A stretch of DNA of 64,000 nt from Phycisphaerae bacterium (GTDB lineage: Bacteria > Planctomycetota > Phycisphaerae > UBA1845 > PWPN01), in assembly GCA_018003015.1 (NCBI GenBank), contig JAGNEZ010000010.1, positions 1 to 64,000 of the forward strand, written 5' to 3'. Positions 6,391-16,928 of the stretch are shown piece after piece. Made by a program: the position numbers and the translations under genes. The notes under the pieces are model-generated. The model ran no database searches, had not been told where the DNA came from, and saw only the letters and a list, made by a program, of their open reading frames with translations. The first letter of the stretch is position 1; every line of letters begins with the position of its first letter.

Positions 6391-6709
6391 ATGAAAGCGC
6401 ACAGCGCGGCCATTTTATTCGGCTTGGCCGTGCTTGCCGCCGTGTTGGCGGGGCCGGTCCAGGCGCAAGTCGGGCCACCGCCGAACGTGCTCGTACCGCC
6501 CAGCAACGCCAGGAATCCCCTGGAGCAGGGACTGCGGTTCCAGACCAACTACCGGGTGCTGTTGACGCCTGGGGGCGGCCTGGGGCCGGCCGGGGGCATG
6601 ACGCCGGCGTAGATCCGGTCCTTCTACAACATGCCTTCGACCGGAGGGTCCCATGCCATCGCCATCGTGAACGCCTACCACTATCCCACCGCGTTGAACG
6701 ACTTCAACA
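6391..6709 (+). pseudogene. S53-type peptidase, N-terminal remnant with amber stop
   Basis: The segment encodes a leader (residues 1-25, ending VQAQ) and the start of a planctomycete-style S53/kumamolisin-like peptidase: GGMTPA, stop, IRSFYNMPSTGG, then AIAIVNAYHYPTALNDFN. Family members usually read TPAQIR here, so the TAG at 6610-6612 looks like a single CAG-to-TAG change. The reading frame stays the same on both sides of the stop. The peptidase similarity then ends abruptly near 6709 and recombinase sequence begins, so the catalytic domain is absent. AAGGAGG precedes the ATG, indicating a formerly expressed gene. The peptidase assignment rests on the short motif and on the spacing, not on a database match. 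Confidence 0.68.
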
Positions 6710-7060
6710 GTCTGCTGGCCGCCGCCGGGGTGCCGTTAACCACCCGGCAAATCCTGATGAGGCACGCTCGGAACACGGTCACCGATGACTACACCGACGT
6801 AAGCCTGATCGATCTTCGGGGAGCCTTGGCCAAGCTGCCCTTGGTTCCCCTGGATGATGGCCGGGAACGGCTGCGGGCGACGGGGACGCACAACGCCAGA
6901 AGTGCAGAGGTAACTGAATCGCCAGTTTGTGACGCAGTTTGTTTTACAGAGTACAAACCGGCACAAATCGGGGCATCCGCTGACGCATCGGGCGGGAATC
7001 TGTCTTCGCTGGATTGTGCCGCAACTGCTGAATCTGACAGGGCTTGTCGTTCAAAGTCAA
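6710..7060 (+). pseudogene. Tyrosine recombinase (integrase), C-terminal remnant
   Basis: From about 6710 the frame reads LLAAAGVPLTTRQILMRHA, then TDDYTDVSLIDLRGALAKLP. This is the C-terminal part of a tyrosine recombinase: the Leu-x-x-x-Gly-Val region, the R-H-A helix where other integrases have GHS, and the segment that carries the catalytic tyrosine (DYYTDV-like). The upstream arm-binding and catalytic core regions are missing. Downstream the sequence continues in shifted frames resembling the low-complexity integrase tail and runs toward the 3' end of tRNA-Arg. It is fused in frame to the peptidase head, so a deletion joined two unrelated genes. It is not expected to be functional. Confidence 0.62.
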
Positions 7061-7072
7061 CGGCTGGCAAAC

Positions 7073-7146
7073 TACACCGCGCAGGAGTCGAACCTGCAAC
7101 CTTCGGCTCCGTAGGCCGATGCTCTATCCAATTGAGCTAGCGGTGC
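7073..7146 (-). tRNA. tRNA-Arg (anticodon ACG)
   Basis: The reverse strand folds as a cloverleaf of 74 bases. The acceptor arms are GCACCGC and GCGGTGT, with one G-U closing pair and discriminator A. The D arm is GCTC/GAGC. The anticodon stem is TCGGC/GCCGA with loop CTACGGA, giving anticodon ACG. The T arm is GCAGG-TTCGACT-CCTGC. CCA is not encoded. An integrase remnant lies just past its 3' end, a usual place for element insertion. Confidence 0.95.
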
Positions 7147-8737: not shown

Positions 8738-9325
8738 TCACTCAAACTGGACTCGCATTCCACTCGCACATTGGAAACACCGATACGGCAATTCCTGATA
8801 CAACCTGACCATCGGGCCGAAGCCGGTACAGTGAGCGAGGCCGATTCGTTGCACCGCAAGATCACGAAGCCTCTGGCTAGTCCGATCCAAGCGTCGCTCG
8901 TTCGCGTTCAGCAGATGCATGCCGCCGAGAACAGCGTGGATCCGATCTTCTCCAGTCGATGCACAGACGTGGTCCAGCGTGTTCGCGACGCCGGCATGGG
9001 CGCAGCCCAACAACACGACGATGCCGTTGCCGGTCTTCACGTAGAGGGCCTGGTCATCGATGATCGCATCCAGTTCGGTGAGTGACTCGTCGAGGAAGAA
9101 CGACCCGCCGGTGTCCTCACAATCGTGGTGCCGCGGGATCTGGCCGGTAAGCCAGACTCCTGCACTCAACTCCACCGGATTGGCGCGAGTCGAGAAGATC
9201 CGTCCTACGCGCGACGCGAGCCAATCAAGGGACTCGACCCAGAGCGCCAGCCCGTGTTCCGCCAGCAGGCCGCCTCGGATGACGGTGTTCTCCGCGAGGA
9301 CCGTGATCGCTAATCGCTTGACCAC
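8738..9325 (-). pseudogene. Metallo-beta-lactamase-fold hydrolase with internal deletion
   Basis: The protein begins like the metallo-hydrolases related to dihydropterin-ribofuranosyl-aminobenzene phosphate synthase: ITVLAENTVIRGGLLAEHG at residues 7-25, then LALWVES. Normally the strand ILFDTG, the metal-binding HxHxDH motif (SHGHYDH) and about 80-90 further residues follow. Here the sequence jumps at about residue 32 to VGRIFSTRANPVELSAG, then GVWLTGQIPR. The later ligands remain: LLGCAHAGVANTL, VLGGMHLL and LAHCTG. The reading frame is open (195 residues), but without HxHxDH it should not bind metals normally. It is the last gene of the left operon of the orp-like locus, 54 bases after the thioesterase gene. 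Confidence 0.75.
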
Positions 9326-9379: not shown

Positions 9380-9865
9380 TCAGGTCTGCGACGAACAGAC
9401 GGGTCGATGCTCCGCCGAATCGAGGTCGGATTCGCAGACCAAGTCTCCGTAAGCCGAATCCCAGAAGGTCGCTTTCGCGGTGGTACGGATGTCACCGTTC
9501 TGGACAACCTCGGACTCGAGGTAGTAGAGCGGCGGCTGGGCGTCCACGATCCGCGCCCGAACGGTGGCCGGCACGCCGACGGTCACCGCACGGTGATAGC
9601 GAATGGCGAGCTTCGCGGTCAGTCCGGCAACGTTTCTGGCGAAAAGGCAATGGGTCATCGCGGCATCGAGCAACATGGCGGTGACGCCGCCGTGCATGCG
9701 GTCGGGATAGCCCTGGAACGTCGCACCGCAGTCGAACTCGGCGATAACACTCCCGTCGGCTTGCCGCTGGAAACGCAGACCCAGGCCGTCCGGCCGGTCG
9801 CTGCCGCACACCAGGCACGAGGGATGGCACTTGCGGCTGAGGTCAGTGATCACAGATGTTGTCAC
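9380..9865 (-). CDS. PaaI-like hotdog-fold thioesterase
   Basis: A 161-residue protein of the PaaI/YdiI hotdog thioesterase group, which hydrolyses acyl-CoA or similar thioesters. The core is visible as FQGYPDRMHGGVTAMLLDAAMTH (residues about 50-72; the HGG-x3-LLD motif), followed by the strand TAKLAIRYHRAVTVGVPATVRA. A cysteine pair near the N-terminus (CHPSCLVCGSD) is common in this subgroup. The assumed GTG at 9865 overlaps the upstream gene by 23 bases; a GTG at 9850 would reduce this to 8. It belongs to the left operon of the orp-like locus and is intact, but its link to cofactor chemistry there is unclear. Confidence 0.82.
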   Translation of the reverse strand: MTTSVITDLSRKCHPSCLVCGSDRPDGLGLRFQRQADGSVIAEFDCGATFQGYPDRMHGGVTAMLLDAAMTHCLFARNVAGLTAKLAIRYHRAVTVGVPATVRARIVDAQPPLYYLESEVVQNGDIRTTAKATFWDSAYGDLVCESDLDSAEHRPVCSSQT

Positions 9866-10181
9866 CGGCTTTCAGGTTCCCCGACAGATAGGCGGCGACG
9901 ATCTCGTCAGGATCGCCGTCGGGCGCGCCGACAATGACCTCGACTCCATTCTCCGCGAACAGCTGCTGTGCCCGCTGGCCCATGCCGCCGGCAATGACGG
10001 CATTCACGCCCTTTTCGTGGAGCCAGCGGGGCAGCACACCCGGTTCGTGGGGTGGTGGGGTCAGGTATTCCCTTCGCAGCGTTCTCTTGACCGCGGGGTC
10101 CACTTCATGAATGACAAACTGCGAGCAGTGCCCGAAGTGCAGGCATAAGCGGCCATTGGCGACCGGCACGGCAATCTTCAT
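9843..10181 (-). CDS. NifX/orange-protein-like protein (dinitrogenase FeMo-cofactor family), copy 1
   Basis: A 112-residue protein of the NifX/NifB-C/MTH1175 fold, a small RNase H-like domain that carries metal clusters such as the FeMo-cofactor precursor or the Mo-Cu cluster of orange protein. It starts MKIAVPVANGRLCLHFGHC, the typical first strand plus HFGH loop. It ends with GVNAVIAGGMGQRAQQLF, then GVEVIVGAPDGDPDEIVAAYL, where family members conserve the GG-x-G turn. Cys13, Cys19 and Cys110 are possible ligands. GAGCAACTC precedes the ATG. It is the first gene of the left operon, downstream of a -24/-12 promoter at 10319-10334 and a palindrome at 10446-10458. Confidence 0.88.
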   Translation of the reverse strand: MKIAVPVANGRLCLHFGHCSQFVIHEVDPAVKRTLRREYLTPPPHEPGVLPRWLHEKGVNAVIAGGMGQRAQQLFAENGVEVIVGAPDGDPDEIVAAYLSGNLKAGDNICDH

Positions 10182-10318: not shown

Positions 10319-10334
10319 TGCATGCGACGTTCCA
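10319..10334 (-). promoter_or_regulatory. Candidate sigma-54 (-24/-12) promoter
   Basis: The reverse strand reads TGGAACGTCGCATGCA. Against the sigma-54 consensus TGGCACG-N4-TTGCA it matches at all but two defined positions, including the invariant GG and GC with 10 bases between them. Transcription would start near 10308 and read into the NifX-like gene after a leader of about 125 bases. The palindrome at 10446-10458 lies about 140 bases upstream of that start, a normal enhancer distance for sigma-54 activators. Confidence 0.55.
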
Positions 10335-10460: not shown

Positions 10461-11655
10461 CTACCGGCGATGGCTTCGACTGTCAGTCGGCGGCAATTCG
10501 ATCCTCAGGGTCTTGAGCCTGCGGAACAGGGTGCTGGGGTCGATGCCTAGGTCGCGGGCGGCCTTTCGGCGGTTGCCCTGATGTCGGCGGAGGGCCTCGG
10601 CGATGAGCAGTCGTTCCATCACCGCCAAGGAAGTGAGGCTACCGACCTCGCCGTCTGAGTGACCGGGAGCGGCATGTAGCTCGGGCGGCAGGTGGTGGAG
10701 TTCGATTACCCCGCCGTGGCAGAGCACAAAGGCCTGCTCGATGATATTCTCGAGTTCGCGAACGTTGCCCGGATACTCGTGCTCCATGAGCCGGGCGAGA
10801 GCTTCGTTCGACACGCCGACGATGTCTTTGCCCTGCAATCGGTTCACTTCGACTGACTCGAGCGAAACCCAGGGGTTCGATAGATCTCTCCTGGAGAACG
10901 CGAAGCAGGCGGACCTGCATCGCCTGAGAGATGTCGCCGATCTCGTCGAGGAAGATGGTTCCACCGTCGGCCAGTGCGAAGCGGCCAGGCTTGTCCTTGC
11001 GGGCATCGGTGAAGGCCCCTGCTTTGTGACCAAAGAGCCCGGATTCCAGCAGCGTATCCGGCAAGGCCGCACAGTTGATGGCCATGAAACGCTTCTTCTT
11101 GCGGCGTGACAGGTTGTGAATCGCCCGGGCGAACAACTCCTTGCCCGTCCCGCTGGCTCCCTCGATCTGGACAGTGCTGTCCGTCTCGGCGATCTGAGGA
11201 AGCACCTGAAACAGGCTGGTCATGGCCGGACTTCGGCCGACAGTATCCTCAAACGTGTAACGCGCCTCGAGTTCCTTTTTCAGTTGCACGATCTGGCTAA
11301 GATCCTGGAACGTCTCCACGCCTCCGATGACCGCCCCGCCGGCGTCCTTAAGCAGGGCGATGGAAATCCGAATCGGGATCAGTTGCCCGGTGTCGCTCAC
11401 GATGTGGGCGGTGGCGTTCACGATCGGTTTGCCGGTCGTGAGGGTGCGCCGCAAGACGCAGGCGCTCTCACGAATGCTGGCCCGGAAAACCTCGCAGCCC
11501 GGTCCGCCCAGGGCGTCCTGCCGGTCGATGCCGGTGATCCGCTCGGCCGCCTGATTGAAGGCCGTGACCCGCCACTCAAGGTCAACGGTGAAGACGCCCT
11601 CATTGATCGAGTCGAGAATAACACTCTGCGATTCGGGCAACTTGGCCGCGTTCAC
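10461..11655 (-). pseudogene. Sigma-54-dependent activator (PAS, AAA+, Fis-HTH), central deletion and frameshift
   Basis: The gene encodes an enhancer-binding protein for sigma-54 RNA polymerase. From the GTG at 11655 (GGAGG eight bases upstream) there is a PAS domain (about residues 10-115; [18 protein letters not shown]). The AAA+ domain follows, with Walker A as [14 protein letters not shown], the loop GAFTDA in place of GAFTGA, and Walker B as [11 protein letters not shown]. At about 10880, after [14 protein letters not shown], the frame shifts and roughly 60 residues are missing, including sensor I (AATN) and the FRxDLYYRL arginine-finger segment. The other frame resumes at [12 protein letters not shown], then [14 protein letters not shown] and a Fis-type helix-turn-helix (RRKAARDLGIDPSTLFRRLK). 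It lies between the two orp-like operons. As read, it could bind DNA but not hydrolyse ATP normally. Confidence 0.83.
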
Positions 11656-11705
11656 CAAGTCAGCCTCCAGGGCAACACTCTGCCGTCCGTATGATAGTGC
11701 CAGAT

Positions 11706-11751: not shown

Positions 11752-11840
11752 TATAATCCCGGCATAACCACAGGGGTCCATAAGGCCATAAACCTTTAAT
11801 ACATAAGTTTTTATATCGATAGCGCGATGCCCTGGCCGCT

Positions 11841-11856
11841 TGGCACACCGCGTGTG
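11841..11856 (+). promoter_or_regulatory. Weak candidate -24 element for the right operon
   Basis: TGGCAC at 11841-11846 is a perfect -24 half. The -12 half ten bases later reads GTGTG instead of TTGCA, so the match is incomplete. A start near 11866 would leave almost no leader before the ATG at 11872. I saw nothing better between the dyads and the gene. Confidence 0.25.
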
Positions 11857-11871
11857 TCCTCTCAAACCACG

Positions 11872-12327
11872 ATGAGAATGGTCGTCCCCCAATGGCAGGA
11901 TCGCGTGTCCCCCGTTTTCGACGTGGCGACCAATCTGCTGCTGATCGAGGTGGAGGAGAGTCGCGAAATCGGGCGGCAGGAGGTCGCTCTGCCGACGACC
12001 AACGATCCTGCCAGGCGAGCCCAGCAGGTCGCCCAACTCCAGGCGAGCATTCTCATCTGCGGAGCGATCTCCTGGCCTCTTGAGACGGCCTTGAACGCGG
12101 CCGGGGTACAGGTGATCTCTCAGATCTGCGGACAGGTGAATGACGTGATTCGGAGTTTCCTGATCGGCGACCTGGCAAACGATGTGTTCCGCATGCCTGG
12201 CTGTTGCCGGCGCCGGAGGTTTCGAGGGGGGCACGGTGGCAGTTGTTCGCGGGAGAACGAACCGGAGCGTGCGGGAGGGCGAGGAGCACGGCAGCGGCGG
12301 ATGCACGGGCATCGCCGGGAGCTCTGA
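11872..12327 (+). CDS. NifX/orange-protein-like protein, copy 2
   Basis: This 151-residue protein opens with [19 protein letters not shown], the first strand and RVSPVFD loop typical of the dinitrogenase iron-molybdenum cofactor family. A middle strand [20 protein letters not shown] and the [15 protein letters not shown] helix complete the domain by about residue 100. After MPGCC the tail is rich in Arg, Gly and His, as in other orange-protein-like paralogs. The start was moved to the ATG at 11872 because the longer frame from 11827 adds residues not expected of the family. No clear ribosome-binding site is visible. It is the first gene of the right operon and could be a metal-cluster carrier or scaffold. 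Confidence 0.8.
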
Positions 12328-12418: not shown

Positions 12419-12784
12419 ATGCCAGCAGGCGATGGAACCGGACCGATGGGAATGGGGCCAATGACCGGCCGAGGTGCGGGCTACTGCACGGGGTACACCA
12501 TGCCCGGATTCATGAATCCGATGCCCGGACGCGGCCGGGGCATGGGCGGTTTCGGCAGGGGACGAGGTGGCGGTCGCCATGGGTGGCGGCACCAGTACTA
12601 CGCGACCGGCCAGCCGCTCTGGGCCCGCGAAGAAGTCCCCGGCGTCGTACCTCTGGGCCCCGCACCGGCACCGGCCGACGAGGTGCAGATGCTGAAGAAC
12701 CAGGCTGGCCATCTCGAGCAGACCCTGGAGCAGCTTCGGCAACGCATCGCGGCGCTGGAGTCAGAACAGGCAAAGACGGACTGA
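12419..12784 (+). CDS. DUF5320-type Gly/Met/Arg-rich small protein
   Basis: A 121-residue protein starting [21 protein letters not shown], a signature start of the DUF5320 family. That family commonly neighbours NifX-like proteins and Mrp-like ATPases in anaerobes. A Gly-Arg-rich middle ([14 protein letters not shown]) is followed by a C-terminal coiled coil at about residues 85-118 ([19 protein letters not shown]). GGAGATACAAAC precedes the ATG. The function is unknown; the coiled coil suggests assembly with a partner in the complex. No membrane segment is present. Confidence 0.78.
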
Positions 12785-13052: not shown

Positions 13053-13940
13053 ATGAGAATCGTAATTGCCAGCGGCAAAGGCGGAACCGGCAAGACGACC
13101 GTCGCGACGAACCTGGCTCATGTGGCGTCGCTAGATGGCCGTAGCGTTGCCTTTGTCGACTGCGACGTGGAGGCTCCGAACGGGCACCTGTTTCTCAAGC
13201 CGGATTGGACGGTTTGCCGGCCGGTGACACGCCCTGTGCCGCGGGTGAACGAAGCCAAGTGTACGCACTGTGGACGGTGCCAAGAAGCCTGTCAGTTCAG
13301 CGCGATCGTCCCCTTGGGTGTGACCGTCCTGGTCTATGCAGAGCTGTGCCACGGATGCGGAGGATGTGTATTGGCCTGCCCCAGCGCAGCCATCTCGGAA
13401 GTGCCCCGGACCATCGGCACCCTGGAGATGGGCTGGTCGGCCGATGTCCAGGTCACCCAGGGGCTGCTCAATGTCGGCGAGGCGATGAGCACCCCTCTCA
13501 TTCGCCAGGTCAAGACGGCGTCACCGCGGGCCGACCTGACCGTGATCGACGCACCACCGGGGACAAGTTGCCCGGTCATCGAGGCCACTCGGGGTTCGGA
13601 CTACGTACTGCTGGTCACCGAGCCGACGCCCTTTGGACTACATGACCTGAGACTGGCCGTGGAGATGGTGCGGGCTCTCGGCCTACCGCTGGGCGTGGTT
13701 GTGAACCGTGCCGAGACAGGGATCTCTCTCGTACGGGACTACTGTCGGAGTGAAGAAGTACCGATCTTGATCGAGATCCCCGATGACCGAAAGGTCGCCG
13801 AAGCCTACTCGCACGGCGAGTTGGCCTCCTCGGTCTCATCGCAGTACCGGTCCATCTTTGAGCGCCTCCTCCACAGTCTGGTCACCGTTGTGCCACGATC
13901 GTCAGCTGTGTCCGCGGCAAGCCAGGGGAGCGTTTCATGA
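13053..13940 (+). CDS. MinD/Mrp-like ATPase with ferredoxin insert, copy 1
   Basis: A 295-residue P-loop ATPase of the MinD/Mrp group that carries a 4Fe-4S ferredoxin insert. The deviant Walker A is ASGKGGTGKTT at about residues 6-16, and FVDCDVEAPN follows at about 34. Two cysteine clusters lie at about residues 70-115: CTHCGRCQEAC and CHGCGGCVLACP. The switch region is TVIDAPPGTSCPVIEA, then VTEPTPFGLHDLRLAVEM. In Desulfovibrio such ATPases belong to the orange-protein complex. Here the gene overlaps its paralog by four bases (ATGA), so the pair is probably translated in balance and may form a heterodimer. Likely role: cluster assembly or positioning (inference). Confidence 0.88.
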   Translation: MRIVIASGKGGTGKTTVATNLAHVASLDGRSVAFVDCDVEAPNGHLFLKPDWTVCRPVTRPVPRVNEAKCTHCGRCQEACQFSAIVPLGVTVLVYAELCHGCGGCVLACPSAAISEVPRTIGTLEMGWSADVQVTQGLLNVGEAMSTPLIRQVKTASPRADLTVIDAPPGTSCPVIEATRGSDYVLLVTEPTPFGLHDLRLAVEMVRALGLPLGVVVNRAETGISLVRDYCRSEEVPILIEIPDDRKVAEAYSHGELASSVSSQYRSIFERLLHSLVTVVPRSSAVSAASQGSVS

Positions 13941-14962
13941 GAGAACTCGTTATCATCAGCGGCAAGGGCGGGACGGGCAAGACCAGCGCGGCGGCGTCCT
14001 TTGCCGCGTTGGCCGATCGCCCCGTGGTCGCCGACTGCGATGTGGACGCGGCCGACCTGCACCTGCTTCTCTCTCCTCAGGTTCGCGAACGTCATGAATT
14101 CCGCTGTGGACACGAGGCGACGATTCGGCAGGAATTGTGCATCGGTTGCGGCCTATGTCTGACTCACTGCCGTTACGGAGCGGTGGTCCGCGCATCAGAC
14201 GCCGGCCTGGTTCCGACGGGTCGCGTGCCCAGCGCCAACTGCGAAGACTGCGACTCCTGCGAACGGTCGTGCCCGGCCAAGATGCTGGACATGATCAGAG
14301 CCATGAGGGAGACCGGTGGAGACAGGGAGGTGGGCGCCTACGCGATCGACCCCGTAGCCTGTGAAGGATGCGGTGTGTGCGTTCGCGTGTGCCCGACTCA
14401 GGCTATCGCGCTCACGGAACGTGTGTGCGGCGAGTGGATGGTCTCCGATACCCGCTGCGGACCGCTGGTTCATGCACGTTTGGGCATCGCGGCCGAGAAC
14501 TCCGGCAAGCTGGTCTCCACGGTTCGTACGGAAGCCCGCCGTGTGGCCCAAGAGCAGGGCCGTTCACTCATCATCGTGGACGGCCCTCCGGGAATCGGAT
14601 GCCCGGTCATCGCATCCATCAACGGCGCCGCTTTCGTCCTCGTGGTCACTGAGCCCACCCCCAGCGGCGAGCATGACCTGAAACGCGTCGCCCAGCTCAC
14701 TCACCACTTTGATATACCGCTGGCCGTGTGCATCAACAAATGGGACATCAATCCTGAGGTTTCGGCTCGGATCGAGGAGTTCTGCGGTGGGAATTCGATC
14801 GTCGTGGCCGGACGGATCCGTTACGACCGGGCAATCACGGCTGCCCAGGTGCAGGGGCGGACCATCGTGGAAGCTCGCGACGACGGCGTGGCGATGGACG
14901 TCCGGAGTCTGTGGGCCAACGTTCGGTCGGAACTCGATCGCTGTGTGCCCGACGCCTCGTGA
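13937..14962 (+). CDS. MinD/Mrp-like ATPase with ferredoxin insert, copy 2
   Basis: A 341-residue paralog of the preceding gene. Walker A reads SGKGGTGKTSAAA at about residues 8-20, followed by VVADCDVDAADLHLL. Its insert is larger, with three cysteine clusters: CIGCGLCLTHC (about 69), CEDCDSCERSCP (about 96) and CEGCGVCVRVCP (about 140). It may therefore hold more than two Fe-S clusters. The conserved switch is IVDGPPGIGCPVIASI, followed by VTEPTPSGEHDLKRV. The different cluster number in the two partners suggests distinct jobs in electron or cluster transfer. The C-terminus appears complete. Confidence 0.87.
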   Translation: MRELVIISGKGGTGKTSAAASFAALADRPVVADCDVDAADLHLLLSPQVRERHEFRCGHEATIRQELCIGCGLCLTHCRYGAVVRASDAGLVPTGRVPSANCEDCDSCERSCPAKMLDMIRAMRETGGDREVGAYAIDPVACEGCGVCVRVCPTQAIALTERVCGEWMVSDTRCGPLVHARLGIAAENSGKLVSTVRTEARRVAQEQGRSLIIVDGPPGIGCPVIASINGAAFVLVVTEPTPSGEHDLKRVAQLTHHFDIPLAVCINKWDINPEVSARIEEFCGGNSIVVAGRIRYDRAITAAQVQGRTIVEARDDGVAMDVRSLWANVRSELDRCVPDAS

Positions 14963-14986: not shown

Positions 14987-15397
14987 ATGGAACCGATTCC
15001 CGATTCAAGGTTCGCGCCGCCGGAGCGGCTTGCTGGGATGATCATCGGCACACCAGTATACTTCGGCAGCGTAACCGCTCAGTGCAGGGCTTTCCTTGAC
15101 CGCTGCGCGATGTTCCGCAGGAACGGATGGGTCTTTCGCGACCGCATCAGCGGCGTTCTGGCGGTTGGTGGCGTTCGCAACGGCGGGCAGGAACTGGCTA
15201 TTCAGGTTGTGCAGGCGGCCATGCAATGCCATGATATGATTTGCGTCAGCGATGAACGGCCGACGGCTCACTCTGGCGCAACGGTGCTTAGTGGCGGCGA
15301 GGGTGGAGTAGAAGGTGACGATTTCGGTCTGCAGACCGCTCGCCACCTTGGAGAACGCGTGGCCGAGCTGGCCATCCGGTTGAGGAGGTTGCCATGA
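14987..15397 (+). pseudogene. Flavodoxin-fold NADPH-dependent FMN reductase, N-terminus missing
   Basis: The 136 residues match the C-terminal two thirds of iron-sulfur flavoprotein/FMN-reductase family members: GMIIGTPVYFGSVTAQCRAF, VLAVGGVRNGGQELAIQ, and DDFGLQTARHLGERVAELA. Normal members begin with a phosphate-binding ISGSPR loop and often a cysteine cluster. About 70-80 residues are missing here, replaced by MEPIPDSRFAPPERL. Only 24 bases separate it from the upstream ATPase gene, so the head is not hidden nearby. Without the FMN phosphate loop it is unlikely to bind flavin. It overlaps the next gene by four bases, showing that it was once part of the translated operon. Confidence 0.68.
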
Positions 15398-16314
15398 CAC
15401 CAACGCGAAGGATCATGAGTGCGGCGTCTGTATTAGTGGTGATGGCGGGCTGCCTGCCCTGGCCGGAGACGACCTCTTCAGACGATACGGCGAAACCCTC
15501 AGGGCTGATCCAGTTGATCGAATTCGAAGAGATTCAGGGACTGCGTAACTGGGCGCACGAACTGCAGCAACGAGGCCTGAAGTCTCTGGCATTCATCCAG
15601 AAGAACATGATCGAGGAGTACCCCGCCGAAATCAAATGGTTGGCGGACCAGGGGCACGAAATCGCCGGTGGATATGCCGAACTGGCGATGTGGGATGTGG
15701 CCTACGAGACCCAGTTGCAGATCATGACCGAGACGAAGACTCTCGTCGAACAGGTGACCGGAAAACCGATGCGGGTCTTCGGTTCAAAGTACTTCGCCTA
15801 CGACGAGAATACGCTGAAGGCCGCGGACGCGTTAGGCATCGATTACATCCTGGCCCGAGGAACTAGCGATGTCGAGGTCATCGTCTACGATCCCGACGAA
15901 TACGAGTGCGATATTATCTCGGTCAGCAACGTGACCTTTGCGGATATGGGCCGGGGCAGCCTTTGCGACTACTCGCTGTGGGCAAGGGGCTCCACGGCTC
16001 AGGAATTCAAGCAGGTCATCGAGCAATCCATCGCCAAGATGCCCAAGCGGATCATGTTCGCCTCCCACACCTACCTCGGCGGCATGAAACAGGCGTGGTG
16101 GGATGTGTATGACTGGCTGCTCGATGCCGGGGAAATCCGGTGGGCAGCCGATTTCGACGAGTGGCTAAAACCGGAGAACGGAGTCTGTCTACGGCTGCCG
16201 ATAAGCTTGATTCCGATCAACCGTGAAGTACAGTATACGACGCCTGCACCGACGACGACGCTGGATGAGCTGGCGGATGTGGATCAGATGTACAACCCTT
16301 GTGGTGCCCCGTGA
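15394..16314 (+). CDS. Lipoprotein with polysaccharide-deacetylase-like fold
   Basis: A 306-residue lipoprotein: the leader ends in VMAGC (Cys19). AGGAGG sits six bases before the ATG, which overlaps the upstream stop. The body resembles the NodB/polysaccharide deacetylase barrel: an opening strand near residue 35, LADQGHEIAGGYAELAM where deacetylases have GHEIGxHxxxH, a middle strand with VFGSKYFAYDENTLKAADAL, and FASHTYLGGM near residue 222. The metal-binding HxxxH pair is not present, nor a clear catalytic FDD, so it may be a non-catalytic binder. It is unusual to find such a protein translationally chained to cofactor genes; the next gene is another lipoprotein. Confidence 0.68.
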   Translation: MTPTRRIMSAASVLVVMAGCLPWPETTSSDDTAKPSGLIQLIEFEEIQGLRNWAHELQQRGLKSLAFIQKNMIEEYPAEIKWLADQGHEIAGGYAELAMWDVAYETQLQIMTETKTLVEQVTGKPMRVFGSKYFAYDENTLKAADALGIDYILARGTSDVEVIVYDPDEYECDIISVSNVTFADMGRGSLCDYSLWARGSTAQEFKQVIEQSIAKMPKRIMFASHTYLGGMKQAWWDVYDWLLDAGEIRWAADFDEWLKPENGVCLRLPISLIPINREVQYTTPAPTTTLDELADVDQMYNPCGAP

Positions 16315-16712
16315 GACGATGCCTTGGATGGCTGATGTCTGCCTGGACGGTTTGCCTGATGAGCGGCGGATGTGCCCCTCCGTCCTCGGAGGAGACGCCG
16401 GCCGGCAGAGATACGCTCATGATCTTCCACAACGGCATGGGGTCGATGTGCCTGGACGCATTGAACTGGCTCGCGGACGTGCGGTCGGAGTATCCGGATT
16501 TGATCATCGAGGAGCACTTGACTACCGATTCGGCCGGCCTTGCCTATTTCCAGGAGCTGAGGGCTCAGTACGAGCAGAGCCAGGGGGTATCGGCGAGCTT
16601 CGGCTACCTGCCCGTCATTTTCTTCCAGGGGCAAGCGTTTTCCGGTTTCAATGATCAGGTGCGGCAGGCCCTGGCAGGACTCATCGGTTCGAGAAACGCG
16701 CCGCCCACGTGA
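16311..16712 (+). CDS. Thioredoxin-like lipoprotein with a single cysteine
   Basis: A protein of about 133 residues starting at a GTG that overlaps the upstream stop (GTGA). The lipobox is LMSGGC (Cys21). The mature part looks thioredoxin-like: the strand TLMIFHNGMGSMCLDAL at about residues 36-52, a helix, the second strand LIIEEHLTTDSAG, and FGYLPVIFFQGQAFSGFND, where the Pro would be the cis-proline. Only one cysteine is present in the active-site loop (GSMC), so a classical CxxC reductase is ruled out. It ends the right operon and may sit beside the preceding lipoprotein in the periplasm. Function unknown. Confidence 0.62.
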   Translation: MRRCLGWLMSAWTVCLMSGGCAPPSSEETPAGRDTLMIFHNGMGSMCLDALNWLADVRSEYPDLIIEEHLTTDSAGLAYFQELRAQYEQSQGVSASFGYLPVIFFQGQAFSGFNDQVRQALAGLIGSRNAPPT

Positions 16713-16928
16713 CGAACCCACCGATGCATCCCCGACAGGGTTCCCATCCTGCCCATGGGGCTTCAACAACACCACGGAAGAACCGGTTCGGCTTGCCCGG
16801 CGACAGACTGGAAGAACTTGACCGCAAGCCGGGCAGATGGATTGACCGGCCGGCGTTGAGCGCTGAACGCGAGGTGAGCACCAAGCTCGCGCCGGGGGAC
16901 GGGCGGCTGTTTCGCCTGGGCAGATGAG

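Follow-up and report, generated by a model that had tools for sequence, protein, structure and literature searches.

An envelope-facing pair of NodB-like and thioredoxin-like lipoproteins associated with orp-type Mrp/NifX clusters in Phycisphaerae

The lipoprotein pair and its cluster

The window analysed here, a stretch of 64,000 nucleotides from a Phycisphaerae bacterium, carries two adjoining genes for a NodB-fold pseudo-deacetylase and a thioredoxin (Trx)-fold protein, which together form an addition, envelope-facing and limited to one lineage, to the orp (orange protein / MrpORP) cluster, a module of known kind that handles metal cofactors of the iron-sulfur and related types. The reading that we favour, with a probability of roughly 0.45, is that the pair serves as a non-catalytic, ligand-binding envelope accessory of this module. 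Such a pair suggests that the system, which is normally internal, also has a binding arm on the outer side of the cell membrane. The ORP complex has been described as a set of metal-cluster proteins with a putative tie to septum position, and a conserved pair encoded in the same module offers a way of asking what this system might sense or serve. The pair further contributes a lineage of apparently dead NodB lipoproteins, of which more than one clade has members in orp-type clusters.

The genes and their boundaries agree with the preliminary description of this DNA, which had reported two lipoproteins at 15394-16712 tied to the neighbouring operon by overlaps. The NodB-like ATG overlaps the TGA of the upstream FMN_red ORF (ATGA, 15394-15397), and the Trx-like GTG at 16311 overlaps the TGA of the NodB-like ORF (GTGA); the Trx-like stop lies at 16712. 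The gene directly upstream (14987-15397) codes for the C-terminal part of the FMN_red flavoprotein only. Both products have a lipobox Cys that is conserved in relatives, the Gly-Cys being invariant in the orthologue alignments (positions 19-20 in 10/10 NodB-like and 24-25 in 13/13 Trx-like sequences), and from these lipoboxes both are predicted to be secreted and lipid-anchored. Trx-like residues are numbered here from the TTG at 16299, an in-frame start upstream of the GTG. Features are collected in Table 1. A sigma-54 site precedes the minus-strand operon both in the window and in G001, a genome of the same genus, and the entire 64-kb window contains just three sites of this kind when up to 2 mismatches are allowed.

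Table 1. Cluster features in the window, with its flanking elements, and Cys-rich relatives of the Trx-like gene at other loci. Positions refer to the window unless a locus is named.
Feature	Position	Strand	Remarks
Integrase C-terminal remnant	6631-7140		G001 counterpart site L112
tRNA-Arg	7073-7146		about 1.6 kb from cluster
Block common to window and G001 (contig C13)	8722..16686		limits close to the ends of the MBL and Trx genes
MBL-fold hydrolase	8738..9325	-	249-bp internal deletion relative to G001
4HBT-type thioesterase	9380..9865	-	conserved orp-cluster member
NifX-like C-terminal domain left from MrpORP	9843..10181	-	ATPase domain deleted
Sigma-54-type -24/-12 site, TGGAACGTCGCATGCA	10319..10334	-	conserved in G001
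Sigma-54 activator (DVU2106-like)	10461..11660, approximate	-	frameshifted by a 170-bp deletion at 10843/10844; intact in G001 (455 aa)
NifX/orange-protein family ORF	11827..12327	+	true start probably downstream of 11827
DUF5320 protein	12419..12784	+	
Mrp1, MinD/Mrp-type P-loop ATPase with ferredoxin insert	13053..13940	+	
Mrp2, MinD/Mrp-type P-loop ATPase with ferredoxin inserts (Orp3/Orp4-like)	13937..14962	+	
FMN_red iron-sulfur-type flavoprotein, C-terminal remnant	14987..15397	+	intact in G001 (200 aa, with CxxCxxC)
NodB-fold pseudo-deacetylase lipoprotein	15394..16314	+	306 aa; lipobox Cys20; metal and catalytic motifs lost; motif-5 His225 kept
Thioredoxin-fold lipoprotein	16311..16712	+	single fold Cys51 (GSMC), cis-Pro105, lipobox Cys25
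Family f8 Cys-rich Trx-like gene	L028 11403-11930		
Family f8 Cys-rich Trx-like gene	L036 10962-11525		
Family f8 Cys-rich Trx-like gene	L038 3885-4415		
Family f8 Cys-rich Trx-like gene	L060 1282-1818		

Distribution and genomic context

Of 114 genomes of the window's order, 9 contain both genes; these are the only ones with the close NodB-like family, and three more have the Trx-like gene (12 in total). Mrp1 is present in 23 of the 114, namely in 10 of the 12 genomes with the Trx-like gene and in 13 of the 102 without it (Fisher P about 1e-6, relatedness of the genomes being ignored). Across the phylum the Trx profile matched the window's own genome only, among 392 sampled genomes, and a contig scan with two peptide patterns found loci only in Planctomycetota/Phycisphaerae, the named relatives being metagenome-assembled genomes (MAGs). 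The two genes are not an obligate couple, since G046, G454 and G455 have Trx-like genes and lack a close NodB-like one.

According to the preliminary description, its reading would be refuted if the pair turned up in many unrelated contexts where the ATPases are missing. We found otherwise: seven of the 11 loci of the NodB-like clade lie inside orp clusters and two lie against orp remnants (a piece of MBL in G010, the C-terminus of Mrp2 in G027), while one sits at a contig edge and one is unlinked. In this last genome (G004) the pair has an unrelated place and Mrp1 is encoded elsewhere; G010 has the pair and lacks Mrp1.

The search for the pair beside Mrp/NifX genes in other genomes, which had been proposed as a check, led to full orp clusters. 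The best intact loci comprise a sigma-54 regulator, NifX, DUF5320, twin ferredoxin-ATPases, MrpORP, thioesterase, the pair, MBL and peroxiredoxin (Prx). The order in L029 is sigma-54 activator, NifX, DUF5320, NifX, Mrp1, Mrp2, MrpORP, thioesterase, NodB-like, Trx-like, MBL, Prx and rSAM, and L036 is nearly the same (Mrp1-rSAM-Mrp2-MrpORP-thioesterase-NodB-Trx-MBL-Prx). The orp module itself (sigma-54 activator, twin ferredoxin-ATPases, NifX and MrpORP) is complete in L029, and within the stretch read L036 and L097 lack only a matched activator. L097 and L104 have MrpORP, thioesterase, Trx-like and MBL genes, and L097 carries, 1.6 kb beyond, a NodB-like gene that belongs to a second clade; L038 combines a sigma-54 activator with Trx-like, NodB-like and NifX genes, and there the Trx-NodB-NifX genes are headed by a -24/-12 site whose distance to the Trx-like start is 89 bp. 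More distant arrangements are sigma-54 activator, NifX, NodB-like and a second NodB-like gene of another clade (L098, from another order of the class), and DUF5320, ARMT1-like, divergent NodB-like, NifX and Mrp1 (L066).

In the tree the close NodB-like clade (11 loci, support 100/98) stands apart from two other groups, and all three have orp-linked members; divergent pseudo-deacetylases of the same family lie in orp clusters of G005 and G454. The divergent pseudo-NodB lipoproteins in orp clusters (L066 5396-6319, L097 10398-11183, L098 4844-5692) are about 22-26% identical to the window protein. Other divergent copies (L064, L065, L067 and L068) lie outside orp clusters, in ordinary contexts.

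Operons of this kind are under sigma-54 control and have a putative link to positioning of the division septum (PMC3897727; PMC6345978). Those of Desulfovibrio vulgaris (DVU2103-DVU2109) share with the present clusters divergent operons, a sigma-54 activator, two ferredoxin-bearing MinD/Mrp ATPases, a NifX-type orange protein and MrpORP, whereas the Planctomycetota clusters add the thioesterase, the NodB-like and Trx-like lipoproteins, MBL, Prx and rSAM. For D. vulgaris, the MrpORP paper (PMC6345978) mentions neither a lipoprotein nor a thioredoxin, and no lipoprotein is mentioned in PMC3897727.

The NodB-like protein

Foldseek, VIA and PF01522 all place the protein in the NodB fold. The PF01522 match (E 2.6e-10, above the Pfam cut-off) starts at profile position 28 and hence misses motif 1. 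Structure prediction, suggested beforehand for both proteins, gave for this one an AlphaFold2 NodB barrel of modest confidence (pLDDT 64.5), in which the most conserved loop, 167-195, falls below 50 and the C-terminal tail is also poor. The top Foldseek match is the CE4 pseudoenzyme BA3943 (Foldseek E 1.9e-8), and the VIA Z scores are nearly tied among HP0310 (17.2), 3rxz (16.7), ArnD (16.1), BA3943 (15.9) and PuuE (15.8).

Concerning the motifs, we used an alignment of ten orthologues, 55-90% identical to the window protein, and L117, a canonical-looking NodB protein of the same genome (SVDVEDYH, GHHLGIHGYYHLH, YLHPYE); L116, L118 and L119 were left out of the latter comparison. The protein had been described as deacetylase-like and devoid of HxxxH, and indeed His occurs only at 54, 88 and 225, the motif-2 metal ligands being absent in 10/10 sequences (GHEIAGGYAE or GHEIMGLYPE vs GHHLGIHGYYHLH). 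The Asp-Asp of motif 1, base and metal ligand, is replaced (IEFEE/IEFHD instead of TFDD or DVED), and the motif-3 Arg is absent from VFGSKYFAYD, with Gly or Ser at its place in the alignment with 7y51/7fbw. A metal-dependent deacetylase would thus be ruled out by motifs 1-3. Of the earlier interpretation, an envelope-facing branch perhaps binding a ligand or a metal, the attachment of such a pair to an orp-type Mrp/NifX locus stands, whereas metal binding by the NodB-like protein is unlikely because the whole metal triad is absent. His225 of motif 5 is kept in all orthologues and in paralogues, and both it and Glu43 are invariant even in the divergent ones. These divergent paralogues also keep D.E in motif 1 and sometimes the first His (IALHG in L064, L067 and L068), so the metal site looks, from the alignments, to have been lost stepwise. 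Asp192 was considered as the motif-4 Asp of an Asp-His relay, an assignment that is unsafe, the canonical-looking L117 having Gly there. The ten orthologues share the blocks GHEI.G.Y, WDV.Y..Q, VTGKPMR, DEY.C, SNVTF.DMG.GSLCDYSL.ARG and H.YLGG, as well as Cys172, Cys191 and Cys303.

PuuE, a metal-independent allantoinase of the NodB1.2-like group and an intracellular enzyme of purine breakdown, has a NodB fold with an incomplete metal site; the present protein is 13% identical to it and is predicted to be a secreted lipoprotein. The CE4 pseudoenzyme BA3943 and BA0330/BA0331 likewise share the NodB fold and the expected lack of deacetylase activity. BA0330 and BA0331 of Bacillus anthracis are inactive CE4 lipoproteins that bind peptidoglycan (PMC4505593), BA0330 carrying an extra FN3-like domain; the NodB-like protein differs in its low identity to BA3943 (11-14%) and in its linkage to orp genes.

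The Trx-like protein

The second lipoprotein, 137 aa long, is one Trx domain after a signal region, predicted with pLDDT 95-98 over the domain (VIA Z 10.4, 1.9 Å over 82 residues). Neither Pfam nor NCBIfam gave a family match, and a PDB sequence search returned chance matches only. Its thirteen sequences share F.N..G.MC..AL.W and F.YLP..F....A.SGF. As described earlier, the window protein has a single cysteine in GSMC and keeps the cis-Pro strand (Y103-L104-P105), Pro105 of the cis-Pro loop being invariant in the 13 sequences. CxxC is absent in 13/13, which have GxMC, i.e. G(S/P/A)MC. G48-S49-M50-C51 aligns without gaps on C32-G-P-C35 of thioredoxin; this matching of Cys51 to Cys35 and of Gly48 to Cys32 comes from our own strand-loop-helix alignment of the sequences, not from coordinates. 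The remaining Cys would hence occupy the buried 'resolving' position and an invariant Gly that of the nucleophilic Cys, and because the latter is lost the protein is probably no normal dithiol oxidoreductase. The chaperedoxin CnoX/YbbN likewise has a Trx fold that keeps only the second Cys position of CxxC, and E. coli CnoX (SXXC) lacks oxidoreductase activity, for which the first Cys is required (PMC6282202). CnoX combines SXXC with a TPR domain, which is absent from the Trx-like protein, predicted to be a lone lipid-anchored Trx domain with G(S/P/A)MC.

Two further observations concern relatives of this gene. In family f8 the Trx domain of the Trx-like lipoproteins is preceded by an additional Cys-rich N-terminal segment (GxC..GxC..GLxC..D.C). 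The Trx-like gene of G046 lies beside an FMN_red gene with a Tat-type signal (L030 17857-18780 and 18632-19057), and a second Trx-like C-terminus at a contig junction (L031 5-94) suggests a tandem duplication.

Selection

Between the window and G001 the NodB-like protein is 89.9% identical (Ka/Ks 0.14), the Trx-like 86.3% (0.34), Mrp1 82.9% (0.23), Mrp2 88.1% (0.21) and DUF5320 97.5% (0.14), which makes the NodB-like protein the second most conserved of six cluster proteins against the sister species, after DUF5320. At greater distances Ka/Ks is 0.09-0.15 for the NodB-like and 0.32-0.34 for the Trx-like gene. By these sequence ratios both genes are under purifying selection, strong on the NodB-like gene, and its low Ka/Ks together with its high rank among the cluster proteins argues against its sequence features being due to chance.

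Possible functions of the pair

A non-catalytic, ligand-binding envelope accessory accords with the conservation of the pair, its shared order in orp clusters, the -24/-12 site in L038 and the two chromosomal places described below. The NodB fold with motifs 1-3 lost, the Trx fold, the purifying selection and the precedents in the literature also count for it; the situation in G004 and G010, the genomes with only the Trx-like gene, the paralogues in ordinary contexts and the modest NodB model count against it. Having lost the deacetylase machinery and rebuilt a nearly invariant pocket region, the NodB-fold protein would probably bind a ligand without hydrolysing it. An envelope glycan, of the cell wall or other, is our first guess for this ligand, a weak one that leans to the unlikely side. 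The Trx-fold protein would probably engage a partner protein through the cis-Pro groove and the single Cys, holding it or forming a mixed disulfide, the simplest partner being the NodB-fold protein, and the pair could then serve, for the intracellular MinD/Mrp-type ATPases and sigma-54-controlled module, as an anchor or as a reporter of envelope state. An extended version, which we hold to be quite improbable, is an extracytoplasmic arm of the Planctomycetota orp system in which the pseudo-deacetylase reads an envelope glycan or other ligand and passes a signal or load through the monothiol Trx lipoprotein to the MinD/Mrp metal-cluster ATPases, so that the state of the cell wall would be coupled to the handling of metal cofactors or to septum placement.

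Both lipoproteins could instead protect, deliver or receive a periplasmic metal or thiol compound, together with a P1B-type ATPase and an exported flavoprotein. This is unlikely, even though G007 has a CPC-motif P1B ATPase gene between Mrp2 and the pair, as does G001 in internally deleted form, peroxiredoxin is present in L029 and L036, FMN_red has a Tat-type signal beside the Trx-like gene of G046, and the NodB-like protein has three invariant Cys; L029, L036 and L097 yielded no P1B, two of the genomes with the pair have a truncated FMN_red, and the NodB metal triad and the Trx CxxC are both gone.

Less probable still is that the NodB-like protein remains an enzyme, a metal-free hydrolase in the style of PuuE allantoinase that acts on a small molecule linked to the orp cofactor: the identity to PuuE is low, PuuE works inside the cell whereas this protein is a predicted lipoprotein, and the motif-3 Arg has gone. 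Speaking for it are the VIA scores to PuuE and HP0310, the invariance of His225 and Glu43 even in divergent paralogues, and the fact that PuuE (3cl6), likewise devoid of the motif-1 Asp residues and of one His, shows activity in the absence of metal (PMC10967932).

Mobility and decay of the cluster

That the pair merely hitch-hikes in a mobile, decaying orp island and has no link in function with it is highly improbable. In favour are the relocation of the cluster within one genus, its extensive deletion in the window, and the pairs of G004 and G010, which have no Mrp genes linked to them. Against it, distant families have the pair in the same place, between thioesterase and MBL, more than one NodB-like clade lies in orp clusters, a sigma-54 site stands ahead of the pair in L038, and the pair is under purifying selection.

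The homology with G001 contig C13 runs almost exactly from MBL stop to Trx stop. The next 13 kb of the window match another G001 contig (C23), where the cluster is absent and a 430-aa gene is uninterrupted; all that remains of this gene in the window is its C-terminal end (about 16788-16927). The MBL-to-Trx block thus occupies two chromosomal places within the window's genus, and therefore the pair belongs to the module. The site adjoins tRNA-Arg and integrase sequences in both the window and G001.

Relative to L105 (G001:C13:75001-95000) the block in the window lacks 249, 1213, 170, about 755, about 160 and about 2450 bp, a total loss of about 5 kb that leaves the pair intact. The breakpoints are clean, several with 2-12 bp of shared sequence (microhomology). 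These deletions truncate MBL, MrpORP, the sigma-54 regulator and FMN_red, and remove NifX, ARMT1-like, P1B and rSAM genes. A general assembly error was considered and rejected, since the neighbouring 13.1 kb form one colinear match to G001 with no such gaps; a local assembly fault may lie behind the deletions, and the contig may be chimeric. The CPC-motif P1B-type ATPase gene that stands between Mrp2 and the flavoprotein and lipoprotein genes in G007 spans L025 6923-9073, and its internally deleted counterpart in G001 spans L024 6535-7650. G001 and G007 have internal deletions of their own, in P1B and FMN_red, and the pair is intact in the loci compared.
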